A stretch of 35,583 nucleotides of DNA, taken from NCBI RefSeq assembly GCF_001418575.1, contig NZ_LIQR01000266.1, forward strand, positions 1 to 35,583, read 5' to 3'. Source of the stretch: Peterkaempfera griseoplana (GTDB taxonomy: Bacteria; Actinomycetota; Actinomycetes; Streptomycetales; Streptomycetaceae). The notes beneath the pieces were generated by a model. The model did no database searches and was not told the DNA's origin. It saw nothing but the letters and a program-made list of their open reading frames with translations. Both the position numbers and the translations under genes were made by a program. Below are positions 18,282-34,614 of the stretch, one piece after another (positions within the stretch are counted from its first letter, which is position 1; every line of letters starts with the position of its first letter).

Positions 18282-21200
18282 TTACGAACCGGGCTGCAGG
18301 GTGAAGTTCACCGGCGCTGCGCCTCCCTTGCCGAGGTCCACGGTGCGCCGCTCCGTGCGGTAGCGGTCAGCCGTGACCGTCAGGGTCAGCCCCTTCTGCG
18401 CGGGGAGCCACAACCGGTAGGAGCCGTCCGTCGCCGTGGCGAGCGTGGTGGTGGCCCCTCCCTTGGCGGTCACCGCGACGGTCGCGCCGGCCACCGGCAC
18501 CGTCGACCCGTCGGGCTGCCGGGCGGTGACGGTGCCCGTGAGTTCGCCCCAGCCGCGCGGCGGGGTGACCGTCATGGTGACCGGGACGGACAGGGACGGG
18601 TAGGGCGTGTCGCTGTCCACGACCAGGCGTGCCTGGTGGGCGCCCAGGTCGGCCACGGACATCCCGGAGGCGTCCAGGGTGACCGTGACCGAGGCGGTAG
18701 CGTGCGCCGCGACGGTGACGGTGCGGGCCTTCTCCGACAGCCAGGAGACATCCCCGTGGGACTGGTCCCAGCCGGGCAGCTTACGGACCGCTCCGGTGAC
18801 CCCGGAGTCCGCTCCCTGGCCGCCGACCACGTACCAGCCCTGGGCGCCGGAGGCGTTCACCAGCGGCTCCGGCAGGCCGGGCATCGCCGACCAGGAGTCG
18901 GAGGCCGGGTCGTAGGCGTAGGCCTCGTTGGTGTACACGCCGTCGCCGACCAGCACACCGCCGCCGAGCAGCAGCTTCCCGTCGGCGGTGGCGCCGGCCG
19001 CGCCCCAGACGTCCACCGGCGGGTCGGCCAGCTTCTTCCAGCCGCCCTGCGCCGGGTCGAGGGCGTAGGTGGCCTGCGTGGCCTCCGGCCACGAGCCGTC
19101 GGCCTGGCTCACGCCGCCTGCGCAGTGGAGCACGCCGTCGACGGTTCCGCAGGACTCCCAGGAGGTCGCGACCGGGTAGGACGGTCCGGCCGACCAGGTC
19201 CGCGACGCCGGGTCGTAGACCTGAACATCGGTCGTCCCGCAGTTGTAGGTGTCGCAGCCGCCCACCACGTAGAGCTTGTCGCCGAGGACGGCGGCGCCGG
19301 AGCTTCCGTACGCGACCGGCATGTCGGGGATGCTCGACCAGGTGTCGGTGGCGGGGTCGTAGACCTCACCGCCGGGGATCGGGTTGCCGGCCCGGTCCTT
19401 GCCCCCGGTGACGTACAGCTTGTCGCGGATGAAGCCGTACGCCGGGTTCACCCGCTTGGTCGCGGGCGAGGCCAGGACCCGCCAGGCCGCGCCCGCCGGG
19501 TCGTAGGCGTAGAAGCCCTTGGTCCACTGCGGGTCGGTGGTGGCTCCCAGGCCGGTGTAGAGCACGCCCTTGTCGACGGCGGCGATGCCGCCGGCGCTCG
19601 GGGCCGGCAGGTCGGCGAGGGCCTTCCAGGACTGGCCGACGGCGGTTCCGCCGGTCGTCGCAGCGCCGCCGCTGTTCGTGGTGCCGCCGCTGCTCGTGGT
19701 GCCGCCGGTCTTCGCGGTACCGCTGGATGCGGTCGCGGCGAAGGTGTCGGGCTGCAGGTCGGTCTTCACCCGGCGGACGGGCTCTCCTGCGGTGCGGGCG
19801 CCCGGTGCGGTTCCGGCGATCTCCTGCTCGCCGAGGGTGATGGTGGCCTTGGTGCCACCGGTGTTGCGGATCTTGAGGGTGACCTTCTTGTCGGTACCCG
19901 CCTCCACACCGGCCCCGAGGGCGGCCTGGTCGATCCGGAGCTGCGCGGGCTTCAGCGAGAAGTCCGCCGTGGTGACGCCGTCGGCCTTGATGTCGGCCGT
20001 CTCGGTCACCGCGGGGTAGCCGAAGGCCGCCAGGTCGGCGGAGAACTTCTGCTTGCCGGTGCGGCTGGAGAAGGCCCAGTACAGGCCGTCACCGGCGGCG
20101 GGGTCGCCCTGCGTGGCCACGCTGACGCCGGCGTCCTCGGGCCGCGCGGTGCTGTGGACGGTGGCGCCGGCCACCCCCGCTCCGGTGTTGTGGTCCGTCA
20201 CCTGGCCGACCAGCAGGCCGCCGGGCACGGTCCGCAGATCACGGGTGCCCACGGCGACGTTGTCGATCTCCCACATGGAGGAGAGGGAGCCGGTGTAGTG
20301 GAAGCGCACCTGGACCGACGGCAGGCCGGCGTACGCGGTGAGCGGCACCGTCTCGTGCGACGGCCCGTTGACCACGTCGGTGTGGTGCCAGACGTTGGTC
20401 CAGTTCGCGCCGCCGTCGGTGCTGACGTCCACGTCGGCCGTGGGGTCGGACAGGCGCATGGTGCCGGGCAGCGAGGTGTCGAACTCCAGCTGCGGACGGG
20501 TCTCGTGGGAGAGGTCGTAGCGCGGGCTGATCAGTTCGCTGTCGGCCGAGCCCCAGCCGAGGTAGTAGTCGTCCAGGATGGCGAACCAGCCGTCACCGCC
20601 GGTCTGGTTGCCCCGGTTCAGCGGGTCGTCGAACTCCCACCCCCCTGCGGAGGTGTTGTTCTTCACCGTCCAGCCGTCGGGCCGGGTGTAGGCGGCGAAC
20701 TTCTGCACCCCGCCGCCGTGGTAGGTGAGGTCGTACCCGGGCGGGAGCACTCCGGAGGAGTTGGTCTTCAGGGTCACGTCGGTGGTGACCCGGCTGTCGC
20801 CGAGGTCCACCTGCGCCGTGGCGGGCTGGTAGCCGGGGTAGAGCCCCTCCACCGTGAGCCGGTAGCTGTGGCCACTCGGCAGGGTGACGGAGTACCGGCC
20901 GGTGCTGGGGTCGCTGTAGGTGCTGCCGGGGACTCCGTCCACGGTGATCCGGGCGTAGAGGCCCCACCCGTGTCCGCCGCCGTCGCGGACCGTGCCGGAG
21001 ACGGTCTGCGAGGGCACCGGCTTCAGGGAGACGTCCCGGGTCACGGCGGCGCCGTCGGCCACCTCCACCGTGCCGAGGTCCTGCTCTCCGTAGCCGAACG
21101 CGCTGACCGTCATCGGGTACGAACCGGCCGGCACGGTGATGCGGTAGTCGCCGACGGAGCCGGTCGTGGCATGGTTGCCGCCGAAGGTCACGGTCGCGCC

Positions 21201-22607
21201 GACCACCGGCTTGCCGGTCGCCGCGTCGGTGACCGTGCCGCTGACCGTGCCGTGGGCCGGGGCCTCGAAGGCCCGCAGGCCGTTCGGGGTGCCCAGGCCG
21301 GTGGGCCCGTCGTACCCGGCGCCCGCGACGCAGGAGTAGAGCGGCTCGCAGTCGGGGGTGGAGCCGAAGCCGCACAGGGAACTGTCCGCGCAGCTGGCGT
21401 TGTCACCGGTGACCACGTCGTTCAGGGCGTCCCGCTGCGCATAGGGGTAGGAGGCCGGGTAGGTCCCCGCCGCGGGCGTGCCGGCCACCGCGTAGACACC
21501 GGCGATGATCGGCGCGGAGGCGCTGGTGCCGCCGGCCACCACCCAGCCGTCGCCCGAGTAGCTGTCGTAGACCGAGACGCCGGTACCGGGATCGGCGACC
21601 GCGCTGACGTCCGCCACCGAGCGTCCGGAGCACCCGGTGTCGGTCTGGAAGGACGGCTTGGGCTCGAACTGCGAGCAGCCCGAGCCGGTCGCGCCCCAGC
21701 GGGGGATCCCCAGGGAGTCGGTGCCGGTGCGGTTCCAGACCGACTCCGACCAGCCGCGTGCACTGCCGTCGCGGACCAGCGAGGTACCGCCGACCGAGGT
21801 GACGTACGGGGAGGAGGCCGGGTACTGGACGCCGTAGCCCTGGTCACCCGCGCTGAAGACCAGCGTGGTCCCCGGGTGGTTCATGTACTGCTCGTCGAAG
21901 GGCAGGGTGCCGGGGTCGTCGACCGGGGCGCCGTAGGAGTTGGAGACGTACTGCGCGCCCAGCGACACGGCGGTGTTCAGCGCCTGGCCCAGGTCCTCGA
22001 AGGAGGCCGAGTCCCCCTCGACCAGCAGGATGTCGGCGTTGGGCGCCACAGCGGAGACCATGTCCAGGTCGAGGGATATCTCCCCGGCCCAGCCGTCGTT
22101 GGGCACCGGGTACGCCGCGCCGCCCCGCTGGTCGACCTTGCGGAAGCAGCCGTTCTCGGTGGTGCACGCCGGCAGCCCGTACTGCTCGCGGTAGTGCGCC
22201 AGGTCGCTCTCGGCGTTCGGGTTGTCGTACGCGTCCACGATGGCGATGGTCCTGCCGGCTCCGCCGTCGGCCGGTACGCCGTACGCCGAGCGCAGGTCTG
22301 CCGGGCCGTAGCCGTCCGGCTGGGCAGGGTCGTCGGCCTGCGCGGCCACGTCGGTGCGGCGCAGGGCGAAGCAGCCGAACTCTCCCGGCTTGGGGGTGCC
22401 GCAGAGCGCCTGGGCAGCCTTCTGGCCGCCGCCGGCAGGAGTCGCCGCCCCGGCGGTCTGCTGCGGGAACTGCGCTGCCAGCACAGTCAGCAGGACCGCG
22501 CCGGCCGCCGACGCGATGCGGCGCAGACGCCGGGTGCCGCGGCGGGCACCCGGCGGGGAGGCCGCCGGGAGGCGGTCCTCTCTGAGGGTTCTTTTCGGTG
22601 AGAACAC
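18282..22607 (-). CDS. Secreted S53 (sedolisin-like) peptidase with Kelch and regulatory-like modules
   Basis: The product is 1441 residues. The signal peptide is about 1-55, with a long basic start and cleavage near TAGAA. The peptidase domain is about 100-450. Glu176 and Asp180 (GEISLD) and Ser362 (GGTSASAP) form the sedolisin Glu-Asp-Ser triad. Asp255 (SAGDQG) is the oxyanion residue, and GYDGPTGLGTP near 431 fits the calcium site. The usual pro-kumamolisin prodomain is absent: only about 45 residues separate signal and catalytic domain. Carboxypeptidase-regulatory-like domains (about 453-530, 538-610) follow, then a MAM/jelly-roll-like segment (about 620-780), a third regulatory-like domain (about 790-880), a Ser/Thr/Gly linker (about 960-985), Kelch repeats (about 989-1275), and a final regulatory-like domain. 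The start is ATG 22607. Monocistronic. Confidence 0.9.
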   Translation of the reverse strand: MFSPKRTLREDRLPAASPPGARRGTRRLRRIASAAGAVLLTVLAAQFPQQTAGAATPAGGGQKAAQALCGTPKPGEFGCFALRRTDVAAQADDPAQPDGYGPADLRSAYGVPADGGAGRTIAIVDAYDNPNAESDLAHYREQYGLPACTTENGCFRKVDQRGGAAYPVPNDGWAGEISLDLDMVSAVAPNADILLVEGDSASFEDLGQALNTAVSLGAQYVSNSYGAPVDDPGTLPFDEQYMNHPGTTLVFSAGDQGYGVQYPASSPYVTSVGGTSLVRDGSARGWSESVWNRTGTDSLGIPRWGATGSGCSQFEPKPSFQTDTGCSGRSVADVSAVADPGTGVSVYDSYSGDGWVVAGGTSASAPIIAGVYAVAGTPAAGTYPASYPYAQRDALNDVVTGDNASCADSSLCGFGSTPDCEPLYSCVAGAGYDGPTGLGTPNGLRAFEAPAHGTVSGTVTDAATGKPVVGATVTFGGNHATTGSVGDYRITVPAGSYPMTVSAFGYGEQDLGTVEVADGAAVTRDVSLKPVPSQTVSGTVRDGGGHGWGLYARITVDGVPGSTYSDPSTGRYSVTLPSGHSYRLTVEGLYPGYQPATAQVDLGDSRVTTDVTLKTNSSGVLPPGYDLTYHGGGVQKFAAYTRPDGWTVKNNTSAGGWEFDDPLNRGNQTGGDGWFAILDDYYLGWGSADSELISPRYDLSHETRPQLEFDTSLPGTMRLSDPTADVDVSTDGGANWTNVWHHTDVVNGPSHETVPLTAYAGLPSVQVRFHYTGSLSSMWEIDNVAVGTRDLRTVPGGLLVGQVTDHNTGAGVAGATVHSTARPEDAGVSVATQGDPAAGDGLYWAFSSRTGKQKFSADLAAFGYPAVTETADIKADGVTTADFSLKPAQLRIDQAALGAGVEAGTDKKVTLKIRNTGGTKATITLGEQEIAGTAPGARTAGEPVRRVKTDLQPDTFAATASSGTAKTGGTTSSGGTTNSGGAATTGGTAVGQSWKALADLPAPSAGGIAAVDKGVLYTGLGATTDPQWTKGFYAYDPAGAAWRVLASPATKRVNPAYGFIRDKLYVTGGKDRAGNPIPGGEVYDPATDTWSSIPDMPVAYGSSGAAVLGDKLYVVGGCDTYNCGTTDVQVYDPASRTWSAGPSYPVATSWESCGTVDGVLHCAGGVSQADGSWPEATQATYALDPAQGGWKKLADPPVDVWGAAGATADGKLLLGGGVLVGDGVYTNEAYAYDPASDSWSAMPGLPEPLVNASGAQGWYVVGGQGADSGVTGAVRKLPGWDQSHGDVSWLSEKARTVTVAAHATASVTVTLDASGMSVADLGAHQARLVVDSDTPYPSLSVPVTMTVTPPRGWGELTGTVTARQPDGSTVPVAGATVAVTAKGGATTTLATATDGSYRLWLPAQKGLTLTVTADRYRTERRTVDLGKGGAAPVNFTLQPGS

Positions 22608-29946: not shown

Positions 29947-30588
29947 TCAGCTCGGACCGCCGGCGCGCAGGGCGAGCTTCATCCGTGTGAAGGCTGTGGG
30001 AGTCGGCCGTCGTGGCAGGGTGTTCTTGATCTGTTGGGCGATCTCCTCCGGCGTGTTCTTGCTCGTGTCGCATTCGATGTCGTAGATGCCGTGCGCGTGG
30101 ACCTGGTCGACCTGTCGCGCGGCAAGACCTGGGGTCCGGTCGCCGCGGATCCGTTCCCGTCGCTCCAGCTCCGGCAGCGGGCAGTGAACGCCGACGAGGA
30201 CGACGTTCTCGGCAGAGAACAGGTCGAGGCAGTCGAGGAGGCGCCAGCGCCGGCTCAGCAGGTAGTCCACCACGATGTGATTGCCGGCTGCGGCCATCCC
30301 GGCTACCGCGCGGTGGAAGCCCCTGGCGGTTCGGTCGATCTCGGCCTGCAGGTGTTCGTCGGGAATGTGCCGGTCAGACCGCATGGCATGGAAGGCGTCC
30401 ACCGGCATGTGGAAGAACGACTGGTCCAGGATCCGGAGAAGCTCCCGGGCGATGCTCGTCTTACCGGAACTCGATGCCCCGTTGAGGAAGATGATCAGCC
30501 CGCCCGGCCTCTGGCCGGACATTTCAGGGCCGCTGGGTTCGCTGGGGCTGGCCGGCGCTTCGTTCGGCTCTGCATCGTCATGCGACAT
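29947..30588 (-). CDS. Chloramphenicol phosphotransferase-like P-loop kinase
   Basis: The product is 213 residues from ATG 30586-30588. An acidic, Pro/Ser-rich N-terminal extension of about 30 residues is followed by Walker A GASSSGKTS (37-45). The segment FFHMPVDAFHAMR places Asp64 where chloramphenicol phosphotransferase has its catalytic Asp. Further segments are AGNHIVVDYLLS, VVLVGVHCPLPELERRE and a lid RGDRTPGLAARQVDQVH, all typical of the CPT family. Family members phosphorylate small hydroxylated molecules such as chloramphenicol with ATP; many homologues are of unknown substrate. A role in self-resistance is possible but not shown. It is followed by an IS256 relic on its upstream side. 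Confidence 0.83.
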   Translation of the reverse strand: MSHDDAEPNEAPASPSEPSGPEMSGQRPGGLIIFLNGASSSGKTSIARELLRILDQSFFHMPVDAFHAMRSDRHIPDEHLQAEIDRTARGFHRAVAGMAAAGNHIVVDYLLSRRWRLLDCLDLFSAENVVLVGVHCPLPELERRERIRGDRTPGLAARQVDQVHAHGIYDIECDTSKNTPEEIAQQIKNTLPRRPTPTAFTRMKLALRAGGPS

Positions 30589-30631
30589 GGGCGGATGATC
30601 CCGAAGGTCGCGGCAGGCTCGCCACCGGAAT

Positions 30632-30992
30632 TCATGCCGCTTCGGTCTCCCGCTCGACCAGGACGCCGTTCTCGAACGGGGCTCCAGCGCGAACCAGAGG
30701 CACCAGGTGGGCGCCGGTGATCACGCGCCGGCGGCCTGGGCGGACTCGACAGGCTTGAAGACCAACGCCAGGGCCGCGGCGGGCTGCCGGCTCCGCGGGT
30801 GACCTTGGTGCGGAGCTTGACGGTGGAGAACGTGGACTCCATGAGGTTCGTGGTCCGTAGATGGATCCAGTGCTCGGCCGGGAAGTTGTAGAAGGCCGGC
30901 AGTTCCTCGGCGTCGTCGGTGATCTTCGCGACGGCCTGGGGCCACTCGGCACCGTAGGTCTTCGTGAAGGCCTCGATCGCCTTCTCGGCGTG
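30632..30992 (-). pseudogene. IS256-family transposase C-terminal relic
   Basis: The minus strand reads AEKAIEAFTKTYGAEWPQ, then AVAKITDDAEELPAFYNFP and AEHWIHLRTTNLMESTFSTV, closely matching the C-terminal third of IS256/Mutator transposases, where the FPAEHWxHLRTTNxIESTF block carries the last catalytic Glu. After LRTKVTRGAG the similarity continues in a second frame (ALALVFKPVESAQAAGA) up to a stop, and then in a third (VPLVRAGAPFENGVLVERE). At least two frameshifts and loss of the N-terminal two thirds make it non-functional. It abuts another fragment at about 30995. Confidence 0.8.
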
Positions 30993-30997
30993 GGCGC

Positions 30998-31150
30998 GTG
31001 GTCCAGCAGGTCCTGGCCGCACCGGCATGGGCATCAAGCCTGAGCGACGAGGACCGGCGCGGGCTGACCGCGCTGTTCTGGTCCAACGTCAACCCATACG
31101 GCACCTGCCGTCTGGACATGAACAAACGCCTCGACCCGGGGCCGACCGCC
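30998..31150 (+). pseudogene. Mobile-element-like fragment of uncertain family
   Basis: The plus strand reads QVLAAPAWASSLSDEDRRG, then LTALFWSNVNPYGTCRLDMN and KRLDPG. This looks to me like the tail of a transposase-type protein found in Streptomyces, perhaps Tn3-related, but I cannot confirm the family. It begins exactly where the IS256 relic ends, on the opposite strand, and has no start signal, so it is a truncated remnant. The following 130 bases up to the SDR gene are unremarkable. Confidence 0.3.
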
Positions 31151-31281
31151 CATGCCGCACCCGCGCCCATCAGCGGATGCTGCCGATCGGTCCCGTGCGG
31201 GGCGGCTGGGCGCAGTGGCCAGGAGGTGAGGCGGAGACTTCCTGCTGACGAGGGGACCGCCCGCGGCCTGGCGGGACCTGG

Positions 31282-31947
31282 TCAGCCGCGGGCGTTCCAG
31301 ACCAGGGGCGCTTTGCGGATCCATGCGTCGTCCTCGAGCGTCCGGACGAGGAACTGGGCGAGGTCGGCGCGGTTGATCCGTGCGCCGGGCTTCTCGGTGC
31401 CGGCCTCGGCGGCCCGCACGGGGCCACCGGCGGGCTTGTCGGTCAGGGCGACGGCGCGGGCCAGGGTCCAGTCGATGCCGGACGAGGCGCGGACGACGTG
31501 GTCGACGCCGGTGTGGTCCTCGAAGCCTGCCTTGACGTTCGACAGCTTGATGAACGCCTTGACCAGCGGGTTGAGCCGGGCCCAGTCGTCGCCCGCGCCC
31601 TGCGTAGACGTCAGCACGATGCGGCGGATGCCCTGCTCGCCCATGACGGTGAGAGTGTGGCGGGCGGCGTCGGTCATGAACATCGGCGGGCTGACCGGCT
31701 TGGCCCACGGGTTGTCGGAGGCGCGGCCGTTGTTCAGCACGCTGATCACCCCCTCGGTGCCTTCGGCGGCCCGGCGGATGTCGTCGATGTTCGCCGGGGT
31801 GCCCTGGATCAGCTCGACACCGGCCGGTGCCTGCACCTTGTCGGGGTTGCGGACAAGGGCGCGGACGCGGTGGCCGCGCTGGGCTGCGTGGTCCAGGACG
31901 TGAGCGCCGGTACGGCCGCTGCCGCCGAGGACAAGGAGGGTGCTCAT
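31282..31947 (-). CDS. Atypical SDR / NAD(P)-binding protein
   Basis: The product is 221 residues from ATG 31945-31947 (an earlier TTG at 31954-31956 is possible). The Rossmann start TLLVLGGSGRTGAHVLDHA has the GxxGxxG dinucleotide-binding motif of atypical SDRs, followed by RALVRNPDK at the end of beta2, a region that often selects NADPH. Further segments are GVISVLNNG, RRIVLTSTQGAGDD and SGIDWTLARAVALTD, typical of NAD(P)H-binding NmrA-like or flavin-reductase-like proteins. Family members act as reductases or as redox-sensing regulators. It lies on the same strand as, and downstream of, the DsbA-like gene, so it may be in the same HxlR-controlled unit. Confidence 0.85.
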   Translation of the reverse strand: MSTLLVLGGSGRTGAHVLDHAAQRGHRVRALVRNPDKVQAPAGVELIQGTPANIDDIRRAAEGTEGVISVLNNGRASDNPWAKPVSPPMFMTDAARHTLTVMGEQGIRRIVLTSTQGAGDDWARLNPLVKAFIKLSNVKAGFEDHTGVDHVVRASSGIDWTLARAVALTDKPAGGPVRAAEAGTEKPGARINRADLAQFLVRTLEDDAWIRKAPLVWNARG

Positions 31948-31983
31948 GGTGATCAAACGCCTTTCGGGCAGTACGGGGGTGGA

Positions 31984-32100
31984 TCAGGCGGCCAGTCGGC
32001 CGGTCAGGATCGAGCCCGGGCGGCGGGCCTCGTCGTGCGCCTTGGTCATGGACGCCTCGTGCATCGGAAGCAGCGGGGCCAGCATCGGCACGTCCGACAT
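31984..32100 (-). CDS. Possible small ORF between DsbA-like and SDR genes
   Basis: A 38-codon frame from ATG 32098-32100 reads MSDVPMLAPLLPMHEASMTK and ends TGRLAA. No clear ribosome binding site precedes it, and it sits within the 250-base gap of the presumed operon. It may be a leader or small protein, or the end of a lost gene. Not recognised. Confidence 0.25.
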   Translation of the reverse strand: MSDVPMLAPLLPMHEASMTKAHDEARRPGSILTGRLAA

Positions 32101-32197
32101 GGAAGGTTTCGGGCCTGTCCAGCGTCGGATGATGGGTGTCGTGGTGCTGAGCCGTCGCGGACGGCGGGTGTCCGTGGCTGCCTGGGGGCGGCCGGGA

Positions 32198-32914
32198 TCA
32201 GGCGCGCTCGGGGACGGCGCAGCCGTCCGGCCCGCAGACCGGGGCATCGCCGGCGTCGTCGGCGAGGGTGAGGGGGTGGCTGGCGTCCCAGGCCTTGCGC
32301 AGCAGCTCAAGGAGGCCGTCGCTGTCCTGGGCGCCGGGCACGCCGTAGCGGTCGTCGACGACGATGAACGGGGCGCCGGTCGCCCCCAGGCGCTGGGCAC
32401 GGGCCGCGTCGTCGCGGACCTGTCGGCGGTAGCGGCGGTCGGTGAGGACTTGGTGGGTCTGCTCGCGGTCCAGGCCGAGGTCGTCGGAGAGCCCCAGCAG
32501 ATCGTCCAGGGAGAAGACCGGCTCGGCCTTGCCGAAGTAGGTCCGGAAGATGGTGTCCCAGGCCTCGCGGTTCTTGCCCTGGGCGCTTGCGTGGGCGAGG
32601 AACTCGTGCGCCAGGTCGGTGTTGCCGACCTTGTTGTCCAGCACCTGGTACGGGGCCAGGCCCTCGCTCTCGGCGAGCTTCTCGATCCGCCGGGTCGAGG
32701 TCTCGGCCTGGCTGCCGCCCATACCGTGCCGGCGGAGCAGGGCCTCGCGGACGGAGAAGGTGTCCCCCTCGGGGAAGCTGCTGCTGAGCGGGAACGAGTG
32801 GTGGACCAGTTCCACCTCGTCCGCGTGCTCGAACCGCTCGATGGCCTTGGCCACCCGGTGGTTCCCCAGGCCGCACCAGGGGCAGGTCACCTCGGACCAA
32901 ATGTCCACCTTCAT
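32198..32914 (-). CDS. DsbA-family (FrnE-like) thiol oxidoreductase
   Basis: The product is 238 residues from ATG 32912-32914, preceded by GGAGGTG. The thioredoxin-fold start VDIWSEVTCPWCGLGNHR contains the CPWC active site (Cys11, Cys14). The helical insertion follows, then the cis-proline loop LGATGAPFIVVDDRYGVPGAQ. There is no signal peptide, so it is cytosolic, as for FrnE-type enzymes. Known relatives act as disulfide isomerases or glutathione-type oxidoreductases. A Cys pair CGPDGC near the C-terminus is an additional possible redox or metal site. It is divergent from an HxlR regulator with palindromic sites between them. Confidence 0.9.
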   Translation of the reverse strand: MKVDIWSEVTCPWCGLGNHRVAKAIERFEHADEVELVHHSFPLSSSFPEGDTFSVREALLRRHGMGGSQAETSTRRIEKLAESEGLAPYQVLDNKVGNTDLAHEFLAHASAQGKNREAWDTIFRTYFGKAEPVFSLDDLLGLSDDLGLDREQTHQVLTDRRYRRQVRDDAARAQRLGATGAPFIVVDDRYGVPGAQDSDGLLELLRKAWDASHPLTLADDAGDAPVCGPDGCAVPERA

Positions 32915-32931
32915 TCACGCACCTCCATTTC

Positions 32932-32948
32932 TTACGACTTGTGCGTAA
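32932..32948. promoter_or_regulatory. HxlR-type operator candidate TTACG-N7-CGTAA
   Basis: TTACGACTTGTGCGTAA is an inverted repeat of TTACG with a seven-base spacer, 18-34 bases upstream of the DsbA-like start. Its complement contains ACGCACAAGT, a sequence type I associate with HxlR operators in actinobacteria. It probably overlaps the DsbA-side promoter. Confidence 0.5.
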
Positions 32949-32982
32949 CGCCATGATGGGCCAGCATGGAAGGCGATACAAA

Positions 32983-33000
32983 ACGCACACCGGTGTGCGT
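32983..33000. promoter_or_regulatory. Perfect 18-bp palindrome upstream of HxlR gene
   Basis: ACGCACACCGGTGTGCGT is a perfect 18-base palindrome centred 29 bases before the HxlR start chosen here. The half-site ACGCAC recurs in the operator at 32932, where GTGCGT occurs at 32941-32946. Both may be bound by the same regulator, allowing autorepression. Confidence 0.55.
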
Positions 33001-33020
33001 GCCGGAGAGGAATGTGCGTC

Positions 33021-33434
33021 ATGGAGACGGCCGACGGAGCAGAGGTGACGGCAGGAGCGGCGGCGATCGGGCCGTGCGCGGCCATCCCTGCCGAGCACAT
33101 GGACTTCATCCGCCAGACCCTCGACCGCGTCGGCGACAAGTGGAGCCTGCTGATCATCGCGGTCCTGGAGTCCGGCCCGCTGCGTTACACCGACCTGCAG
33201 CGGCAGGTCCCCGGCATCTCTCAGCGCATGCTCAGTCTCACCCTGCGCCAGCTCCAGCAGGACGGCCTGATCACCCGCACCGCCTACGCCGAGGTCCCTC
33301 CGCGCGTCGAGTACACCCTCGCCCCGCTGGGCCGCGGCCTGCACGAGATCGTCACCTTGCTGATCGGCTGGGCCGCCGACCACCACGACGAGATCCGTGC
33401 CAATCGCGAGCGCGCCGCAACGGCGGGATCCTGA
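33021..33434 (+). CDS. HxlR-family transcriptional regulator
   Basis: The product is 137 residues from ATG 33021; an ATG at 33012 is in frame but lies too close to the GAGAGGA ribosome binding site. The winged-helix domain (about 36-125) shows RVGDKWSLLIIAVLESGPLR, the recognition region GISQRMLSLTLRQLQQDGLI, and the wing PPRVEYTLAPLGRGL. Cys19, in GPCAAIP, sits about 18 residues before GDKW, where redox-sensing HxlR proteins such as YodB, HypR and QorR carry their sensing cysteine. It likely represses itself and the divergent DsbA/SDR genes and is released by thiol-active compounds; this is inference from the family and layout. Confidence 0.9.
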   Translation: METADGAEVTAGAAAIGPCAAIPAEHMDFIRQTLDRVGDKWSLLIIAVLESGPLRYTDLQRQVPGISQRMLSLTLRQLQQDGLITRTAYAEVPPRVEYTLAPLGRGLHEIVTLLIGWAADHHDEIRANRERAATAGS

Positions 33435-33587: not shown

Positions 33588-33755
33588 GTGAGCGACGACT
33601 TCAAGCGCGTGGAATCGCGCGACTGCCCGATGTCCACCTGCGCCGCCCCCGCGGGGTCCCCGTGCCGGACCGGCAAGGGCAAGGGCAAGGGCAAGGGCAA
33701 GGTGACGATCCGATACCACACCGCCCGCTTCCGCCTGCTGCCCCAAAGTGCGTAG
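33588..33755 (+). pseudogene. Zinc-ribbon remnant resembling a resolvase N-terminus
   Basis: From GTG 33588, 55 residues read VSDDFKRVESRDCP, then CAAPAGSPCRTGKG, and TIRYHTARFRLLPQSA before a stop. The pattern C-x-APAGSPCRT followed by YHTxRFxLVP matches a zinc-ribbon domain that I recall fused to the N-terminus of serine resolvases in Streptomyces transposons. Here Cys18, Cys26 and His44 are kept, the recombinase domain is absent, and the Gly-Lys stretch is expanded by a six-base repeat. It is probably a broken resolvase, or a solitary zinc-ribbon protein. Confidence 0.45.
33672..33701 (+). repeat. Hexanucleotide repeat (GGCAAG)x5
   Basis: Five exact tandem copies of GGCAAG encode Gly-Lys repeats inside the zinc-ribbon remnant. 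Related proteins have one or two Gly-Lys units at this position, so the array looks like slippage-driven expansion. Confidence 0.9.
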
Positions 33756-33791
33756 GGCGTCCCCGGACCGATGCCTCGAAGCAACGAGCTG

Positions 33792-34097
33792 TCACCGAAG
33801 GATGACGCTCACCCCTCGTGCCTCAAAGATCTCCAGGAGGAGGTCGAAGGGGACAAGCTCGCGATCACCAGCGGCCACGCACTCCGCCAACCGCGTCCGA
33901 GCCTCGGCCGAGGAGTCCCAGTGCAAGGTGAACGGAGTGGTCGCGCCCCAGCCGCCTCTCAGACAGTCGTCCAGAGCATCCAGGTTCCAGCCGCTGAAGC
34001 CCCCGGGACACCGGGGCCCAATGTGGGCCTCGGTGATCTCGGCAGGGAATGCAGTTGTCGCCCACCCGGCTTCCCTGAATGATCCGGGTGTGAGCAC
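33792..34097 (-). CDS. Barstar-like protein, orphan
   Basis: The product is up to 101 residues; the only plausible start in frame is GTG 34095-34097, which overlaps the start of the divergent kinase gene by eight bases. The core reads CPGGFSGWNLDALDDCLRGG, the signature of the barstar fold, where the helix after the Gly-Trp-Asn-Leu-Asp-Ala-Leu motif enters the RNase active site. Another strand ATTPFTLHW follows, and it ends FDLLLEIFEARGVSVILR. Barstars inhibit barnase-type ribonucleases. No barnase or other toxin is next to it. The N-terminus lacks a typical first strand, so partial loss cannot be excluded. No strong ribosome binding site is visible. Confidence 0.75.
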   Translation of the reverse strand: MLTPGSFREAGWATTAFPAEITEAHIGPRCPGGFSGWNLDALDDCLRGGWGATTPFTLHWDSSAEARTRLAECVAAGDRELVPFDLLLEIFEARGVSVILR

Positions 34098-34614
34098 GCT
34101 GTTCTTGACAGTCGGCCTGCCAGGGGCCGGAAAGACCACCAGGGCTCGGCAGCTGGCCGAGGAGCACCGTGCGCTGCGGCTGACACCCGATGAGTGGATG
34201 ATCCCGCTCTTCGGCCAGTCGCAGCCGCCCGGGAAGCGCGATGTGCTGGAAGGACGGCTGCTCTGGCTCGGTCTTGAGGCGCTGGGACTCGGAACCAACG
34301 TGGTGCTGGACTTCGGATGCTGGTCTCGTGACGAGAGGTCCGCGATCCGCTGGCTGGTGGCGTCCGTTGGCGCGTCCTGTCGCCTTGTGTATGTGCCGGT
34401 GGACCATGAGACCCAACGCGCTCGGGTCGCTCATCGCCAGTCGACCACCCCGGACCGGACCTTCCCGATGAGCGAGGCGGACCTCGTGCAGTGGAGGACG
34501 CTGTTCGAGGAGCCCGACGCGTCAGAACTCGAGGGCCGTCGGGTCGGCGACCCCCCGCCTGGATGGCCGGGATGGCGGGAGTGGGCGGCCGATCGCTGGC
34601 CGTCGCTCGTGTGA
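34090..34614 (+). CDS. AAA/P-loop kinase-like ATPase
   Basis: The product is 174 residues from GTG 34090. Walker A is GLPGAGKTTRARQLA (9-23). Then come a substrate-type segment LTPDEWMIPLFG, a Walker B-like strand NVVLDFGCWSRDER, a lid with RVAHRQSTTPDRTFPMSEAD, and a Pro/Trp-rich end PPPGWPGWREWAADRW. This pattern fits small P-loop kinases related to polynucleotide kinase and zeta-toxin-like proteins. The phosphate acceptor is unknown. There is no strong ribosome binding site, and the start region overlaps the divergent barstar-like gene. Confidence 0.83.
   Translation: MSTLFLTVGLPGAGKTTRARQLAEEHRALRLTPDEWMIPLFGQSQPPGKRDVLEGRLLWLGLEALGLGTNVVLDFGCWSRDERSAIRWLVASVGASCRLVYVPVDHETQRARVAHRQSTTPDRTFPMSEADLVQWRTLFEEPDASELEGRRVGDPPPGWPGWREWAADRWPSLV

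Follow-up and report, generated by a model that had tools for sequence, protein, structure and literature searches.

The window analyzed here is a 35,583-nucleotide stretch of Peterkaempfera griseoplana DNA (assembly GCF_001418575.1, contig NZ_LIQR01000266.1, positions 1 to 35,583). Toward one end of it, a gene for an HxlR-family regulator (hxlR) faces a gene for a FrnE-type thiol oxidoreductase (frnE), which is followed by a gene for an NAD-binding protein. A preliminary description, made from the letters of the sequence, had proposed a thiol-redox switch at this place. The three genes, strands, and coordinates it gave were correct by open reading frame (ORF) and Pfam evidence, and its picture of a regulator facing a CPWC oxidoreductase was borne out. 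The closest named relative of the locus is that of Streptomyces caniscabiei.

Genes of the hxlR-frnE unit

The regulator belongs to the HxlR/DUF24 family, as PF01638 scored 100 bits against a cutoff of 20.8, and a Foldseek search with its AlphaFold model returned HypR, YodB, QsrR, and HxlR among the structural matches. NCBIfam matches to RrpA/RrpB fell far below their cutoffs and were not used for identity. The start of hxlR was placed at ATG 33021 on the spacing of its Shine-Dalgarno sequence. An upstream ATG at 33012, which would add a Cys2, was not favored because the Shine-Dalgarno sequence would lie almost on the start codon and because that ATG is missing in several relatives.

FrnE scored 111 bits against PF01323 and has the CPWC motif of the DsbA family. 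Its best solved relatives are SCO1869 of Streptomyces coelicolor (3gl5; 3e-47) and FrnE of Deinococcus radiodurans (5cnw; 6e-44), and disulfide reductase/isomerase activity is predicted for it. The protein also carries the C-terminal CX4C of the FrnE subfamily (CGPDGC), a feature that the preliminary description did not mention and that is present in most FrnE relatives compared. The third gene, for which ATG 31947 is the presumed start, had been called an NAD(P)-binding short-chain dehydrogenase/reductase (SDR). The NAD(P)-binding part of that claim stood, with 138 bits to NAD_binding_10, but a classical SDR was not supported: the protein also matches NmrA and Epimerase, not adh_short, and is better called an atypical, NmrA-like SDR.

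Table 1. Features of the locus, in window coordinates
Feature	Position	Strand	Evidence
hxlR: HxlR/DUF24 winged-helix regulator, 137 aa	33021..33434	+	PF01638 6.8e-29; AlphaFold mean predicted local distance difference test (pLDDT) 90.4
Cys19 codon, GPC motif, 22 residues before Trp41	33075..33077	+	alignment A1
frnE: FrnE-type DsbA-family thiol oxidoreductase, 238 aa	32198..32914	-	PF01323 6.4e-32
CPWC codons of frnE, residues 11-14	32873-32884	-	translation
CX4C (CGPDGC) codons of frnE, residues 227-232	32219-32236	-	translation
azoR relic: C-terminal end of flavin mononucleotide (FMN) azoreductase	31989..32096	-	tblastn 1e-5 and 4e-6
NAD_binding_10/NmrA-like gene (atypical SDR), third of the group	31282..31947	-	PF13460 4.6e-40
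Divergent promoter/operator region, hxlR versus frnE	32915..33020	.	blocks conserved in 38 promoters from 54 loci
Putative operator A: TTACG-N7-CGTAA (= TAC-N9-GTA)	32932..32948	.	promoter comparison; YodB spacing
Putative operator B: TACAAAACGCACACCGGTGTGCGT	32977..33000	+	one base off the strict pattern ACAAAAGGCACA-N4-TGT
Perfect 18-bp palindrome inside operator B	32983-33000	.	sequence
Putative hxlR boxes: -35 TTGTGC, 17-bp spacer, -10 CAGCAT	32939-32944, 32962-32967	+	
Putative frnE boxes: -35 TTGTAT, 17-bp spacer, -10 CATCAT	32976-32981, 32953-32958	-	

The cysteine of the regulator

Given a start at ATG 33021, Cys19 is the sole cysteine of the window HxlR, and it is conserved better than any other residue of the N-terminal arm, which otherwise varies. 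It is kept in 44 of the 47 rows of alignment A1, where most neighboring arm positions vary and no further cysteine appears among the invariant or nearly invariant columns. Alignment A1 covers 47 of 54 related loci (numbered with the prefix L), six near-copies and one truncated sequence having been omitted, and the window protein stands in it for L001. Three rows lack a cysteine in column 19, yet one of these, L023, has a cysteine slightly displaced. When positions are counted back from the tryptophan of the DKW motif (W), L023 has its cysteine at W-21, and all 27 rows at least 70% identical, the window included, have one at exactly W-22. Conservation of Cys19, on which the preliminary description depended, is therefore upheld.

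Where the cysteine lies is another matter. The preliminary description had likened its placement to that in redox-sensing HxlR proteins, and a conserved N-terminal cysteine is indeed present, but at W-22 rather than at W-13/-14, where, by residue numbering, Cys6 of YodB and Cys14 of HypR are taken to lie. The 43 rows below 50% identity have the cysteine at W-12 to -14 in 40 cases and at W-22 in 3, and the seven HxlR paralogues of the same genome (L002 to L008) have it at W-12/-13. No second redox cysteine of the YodB Cys101 type is present in the window protein.

The shifted position is shared across a supported clade. In a tree of 137 regulators (138 of 140 loci kept, one duplicate merged), built from 12 residues before the tryptophan onward so as to exclude either cysteine position, the window falls inside a 78-row clade with support of 99/95, although few columns and long branches leave the deep forks unsure. 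Within that clade, 70 rows have the cysteine at W-21 to -23, 5 have it elsewhere, 3 have no N-terminal cysteine, and none of the 78 has it at the canonical W-13/-14. We note that L066, L077, and L082, distant HxlR proteins outside the clade, also have a cysteine at W-22, which may reflect independent relocation. In the AlphaFold model of the window protein, residues 1 to 3 and 6 to 11 have pLDDT below 50, and Cys19 sits within a short helix (residues 17 to 21) directly before helix 1 (24 to 37).

Putative operators between hxlR and frnE

Two inverted repeats sharing GTGCGT/ACGCAC had been pointed out between the divergent genes. The hexamers do cluster beyond chance, with 5 of the 18 in the window lying within 103 bp (0 of 100,000 random placements), and a perfect palindrome is present. 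As conserved repeats, however, they failed: the GTGCGT hexamer occurs five times here versus zero to three times in the other 37 promoters compared, the repeats as such are mostly absent at orthologous loci, and the hexamer was rejected as an operator. Nor is the palindrome evidence by itself, because shuffled sequence gives about one per window (one 18-bp perfect palindrome seen per 35.6 kb; mean of 0.92 and maximum of 4 in 50 single-base shuffles). What is conserved instead is a two-site operator region, seen in 38 promoters chosen from the 54 loci; the 16 omitted (L022, L024 to L032, L111 to L115, and L117) include the loci without operator B.

Operator A has the form TAC-N9-GTA in 21 of 36 tested promoters, the window included, and in both of the two skipped ones. 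The YodB operator at azoR1 is described as TACT-N7-AGTA, which has the same spacing (PMC8063818). Most of the 38 promoters, that of the window among them, have the outer TAC-N9-GTA, but the inner bases differ (G/C here). In its strict form it lies upstream of 11 of the 34 operator B places shown, versus 0.8% of shuffles, and many DoxX-type loci have a shorter block (TTACGAACCGTAAG type). Operator B has the consensus TACAAAAgGCACA-N4-TGTnCG, and its strict core is present in 34 of the 54 loci, with a near copy in 8 and none in 12. The putative -35 box of hxlR overlaps operator A and that of frnE overlaps operator B, with both -10 boxes between them, an arrangement that would make the divergent promoters overlap. 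The expressions for these boxes (matched for hxlR in 22 of 38 promoters and for the divergent gene in 21 of 38) were written after the alignment had been seen and are descriptive.

Operator B travels with hxlR. A search of 394 family genomes for the strict pattern, ACAAAAGGCACANNNNTGT, gave 47 places in 42 genomes, and a search of 394 class-wide genomes gave 14 places in 14 genomes; the reversed pattern, as a control, gave none in either sample. The two samples overlap at three places, leaving 58 distinct ones. At 55 of these, an hxlR homologue in the same orientation begins no more than 350 bp downstream. Of the remaining three, one precedes frnE (L151) and two precede a glyoxalase-superfamily gene (L164 and L165), and their genomes hold such an hxlR elsewhere or close by. 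The window copy is not among the 58 because it is one base off the strict pattern; in its genome, no other site matches a laxer pattern without mismatch. Because the strict pattern was written from the promoters of the closest loci, these are bound to match it; the DoxX-type and class-wide matches are the more independent part. The regulator itself was found at E values of 1e-38 or lower in 33 of 394 family genomes and of 1e-30 or lower in one of three genomes of the genus, and its distribution is accessory and patchy.

Partner genes, proposed mechanism, and known systems

What hxlR faces varies from locus to locus. With 8 to 9 kb of flank, the order frnE-azoR-NAD_binding_10 was seen in L167, L168, L170, L171, and L172, and also in L009, where azoR matched in two frames. 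The other common order, frnE-doxX-NAD_binding_10-SDR, was seen in L173, in L176 with doxX split in two and the SDR unmatched, and in L169 with doxX unmatched. The NAD_binding_10 gene follows frnE in the same order in L009, L167 to L173, and L176. Elsewhere hxlR faces azoR alone, an SDR gene, a quinone-oxidoreductase (QOR)-like gene (three loci, L109 to L111), doxX, or a glyoxalase-superfamily gene. DoxX, AzoR, and the other partners were labeled from seed proteins, with one or two of each kind checked against Pfam, and the SDR partners of the L010 type were scored with the L103 SDR as the query (39 to 40%). Within the unit, the enzymes change, while the regulator and its operator region are more stable; together, the partners look like a detoxification set.

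The window locus has itself lost a partner. Between frnE and the NAD-binding gene lies a relic of azoR, its last ~108 bp, which the preliminary description missed. By blastn, positions 31280 to 32096 are 90.5 to 92.3% identical to L009, L167, L168, L170, and L172, whereas positions ~32194 to 33418 are only 79.9 to 81.8% identical to the same five loci (L172 in pieces) and match L169 and L173 at about 84.6%. Because the match to all five relatives stops at 32096 and identity is different beyond it, azoR was truncated at a junction, probably along with recombination between two operon versions. A second azoR-HxlR locus is possibly present on contig C222 of the same genome, where an AzoR homologue (49%; G000:C222:30295-32044) lies in the neighborhood of other HxlR paralogues, of which one has an in-frame TAG.

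Might the whole unit be a leftover, no longer working after the loss of azoR and the joining of two lineages? The relic, the shift in identity, and a C-terminal fragment of an IS256/Mutator transposase that borders the NAD-binding gene (30495 to 31037, minus strand) would fit such decay. Against it, hxlR, frnE, and the NAD-binding gene are open frames with ratios of nonsynonymous to synonymous change (dN/dS) of about 0.22 to 0.44 versus close relatives (0.30 to 0.44 for frnE versus nine of them), and both operator regions are still present. The ratios come from simple counting, which is approximate at high G+C, and the frnE of L172 was left out. We consider decay extremely unlikely.

Another possible role is self-protection of an antibiotic producer, with HxlR and FrnE acting against the producer's own polyketide quinones. 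In its favor, frnE is said to have been first named in the frenolicin cluster (PMC8945050), and the gene table of the grecocycline cluster lists a FrnE-like GreD followed by an HxlR regulator, GreR2 (PMC4943663). The surroundings of the unit offer it little, and we regard it as very unlikely. Among eight other ORFs of the window that were scanned, the five with Pfam hits (kelch/carboxypeptidase-regulatory, M4 peptidase, BNR-like, methyltransferase, and histidine kinase) point to no polyketide cluster, and three had no hit. The kelch protein has 1,441 residues, with Kelch repeats and carboxypeptidase-regulatory-like domains (18282 to 22607, minus strand). Closer by, a chloramphenicol phosphotransferase-like gene adjoins the operon (29947 to 30588, minus strand; PF07931, 184 bits, under the NCBIfam equivalog cutoff), and an AAA_33 P-loop kinase-like protein, which also matches Zeta_toxin weakly and under the cutoff, is encoded at 33748 to 34614 on the plus strand.

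We think it probable that the locus works as an autoregulated unit for detoxification under electrophile/thiol stress, controlled by a YodB/CatR-like HxlR repressor. Reduced HxlR dimers would bind operators A and B, at the -35 boxes of hxlR and frnE, respectively, and repress both promoters. Cys19 would then be modified by an electrophile or by a compound causing disulfide stress, a quinone or a low-molecular-weight disulfide being the likeliest candidates. With a single cysteine, S-alkylation, S-mycothiolation, or a Cys19-Cys19' disulfide could serve, and a pair of the YodB Cys6-Cys101' kind could not. Release of the repressor would allow FrnE, as a disulfide reductase/isomerase, and the NAD(P)-binding protein to be made, presumably from one transcript, and in relatives the same switch would control azoreductase, DoxX, SDR, QOR-like, or glyoxalase-superfamily genes.

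Thiol or electrophile sensing has indirect support here from the conservation of Cys19, the recurrence of the putative operators, and the detoxification-type genes that the units of relatives face. An autoregulated repressor acting through Cys19 is suggested by the precedents of YodB, CatR, and HypR, by allicin resistance from a FrnE-like DsbA, and by the grecocycline FrnE-HxlR pair. YodB, CatR, and HypR are described as sensing quinones, diamide, HOCl, or allicin through modification of an N-terminal cysteine, with azoR1, yodC, and catDE among their targets (PMC6943732, PMC6212828). A FrnE-like DsbA individually conferred allicin resistance in Pseudomonas (PMC7119367), and D. radiodurans FrnE has been proposed to act as a disulfide reductase in the cytoplasm, its CX4C being functional (PMC8945050).

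Several observations weigh against this interpretation. Cys19 stands outside the usual HxlR column, and a second conserved cysteine is absent. In 12 of the 54 loci, the 250 bp upstream of the assumed start contained no operator B, which slightly lowers our confidence. Some of these cases have simple explanations: L024 is truncated, L025 and L031 have visible variants, L032 is in the canonical group, and in L026 and L028 the assumed start is probably too far upstream. The promoters of L111 to L115 and L022 are really different, though, despite a cysteine at W-21/-22 (W-18 in L022), so the operator code is not clade-wide; L112 to L115 face azoR and L111 faces a QOR-like gene. Operator B is also asymmetric, TACAAAA being present on just one side, and a factor other than HxlR may bind to it. 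In several azoR or SDR loci frnE is only a stub adjoining the operators (clearest in L010, L099, and L101, more decayed in L011, L097, and L102), L012 has frnE in two frames, and two full-length FrnE proteins have lost one CXXC cysteine (CPWY in L167, 5377 to 6087; YPWC in L170, 5607 to 6317), which could mean either early decay or a nonredox role. The azoR of the window, its clearest quinone-reductase candidate, is gone. Finally, frnE has dN/dS of 0.49 to 0.90 versus seven distant FrnE genes, a distance at which synonymous change is hard to count. Separately, we note that L112 to L115 share another block upstream of hxlR (ACATACTGGTAGTGCGGTTGCAC type), a different version of the operator.

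Further objections concern the sensor and lead to another reading, in which HxlR senses a small-molecule ligand or aldehyde noncovalently or through other residues, Cys19 is structural, and the unit is a general aromatic/aldehyde detoxification operon. Three members of the clade without an N-terminal cysteine (L027, L028, and L136) still face DoxX genes, and two of them retain operator B, L136 in strict form and L027 as a near copy. The imperfect retention of the FrnE active-site cysteines points the same way, and HxlR of Bacillus subtilis is reported to govern aldehyde detoxification (PMC6943732). Such cysteine-less rows, however, are only 3 of 78, and it is Cys19 that an otherwise variable arm conserves. 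We judge noncovalent sensing rather unlikely.

The unit is real, conserved, and of a known kind, with a shifted sensor-candidate cysteine and a distinctive operator, and its reading as a thiol-stress switch is likely. More tentatively, and with somewhat more doubt than conviction, we suggest that an actinobacterial HxlR branch moved its thiol sensor 8 to 9 residues up the N-terminal arm and came to rely on one cysteine, with mycothiol or alkylation as the probable trigger. Most members would have kept a two-site operator code, as a fixed switch for exchangeable detoxification genes (FrnE, AzoR, DoxX, SDR, QOR-like, and glyoxalase-type), including deletions that left stubs of frnE or azoR.

In open-licence PMC literature, the wider listings of which were judged by title and the start of the abstract, we found no description of an hxlR-frnE type unit apart from the grecocycline gene-table entry. 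The nearest known systems are YodB and CatR of B. subtilis, which share the HxlR fold (YodB being among the structural matches) and, for YodB at azoR1, the TAC-N9-GTA spacing (PMC8063818). The partners of relatives, which include an azoreductase-type flavoprotein and a glyoxalase/dioxygenase-superfamily gene, recall azoR1, yodC, and catDE. Unlike YodB, which uses Cys6 and Cys101, the window protein has its candidate sensor 8 to 9 residues upstream, and operator B and the FrnE partner set the locus apart as well. To our knowledge, operator B has no counterpart in the YodB system. HypR (4a5n, rank 3) and QsrR of Staphylococcus aureus (4hqe, rank 21) also share the fold and an N-terminal cysteine (Cys14 in HypR), but HypR is described as activated, not inactivated, by modification (PMC6943732), and both differ in cysteine position and partner gene.

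D. radiodurans FrnE and SCO1869 resemble the FrnE encoded here over nearly their full length and in the CXXC; the C-terminal CX4C is also found in SCO1869 by alignment and at residues 239 to 244 of the D. radiodurans protein as described (PMC8945050). Here, by contrast, frnE lies beside a divergent HxlR regulator, and in relatives of the locus it is optional or decayed. QorR of Corynebacterium glutamicum is an actinobacterial redox-sensing regulator of a quinone oxidoreductase, and the QOR-like gene faced in L109 to L111 recalls it, QorR being compared by description alone. The locus provides a counterpart, in actinobacteria, of the quinone/thiol-stress regulons of Bacillus that can be put to the test: a sensor residue, operators, and a set of target genes are predicted in many genomes. 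If the proposed switch holds, a well-studied regulator family can move its sensor cysteine without losing the switch, and the controlled enzyme can be exchanged while the promoter stays in place.

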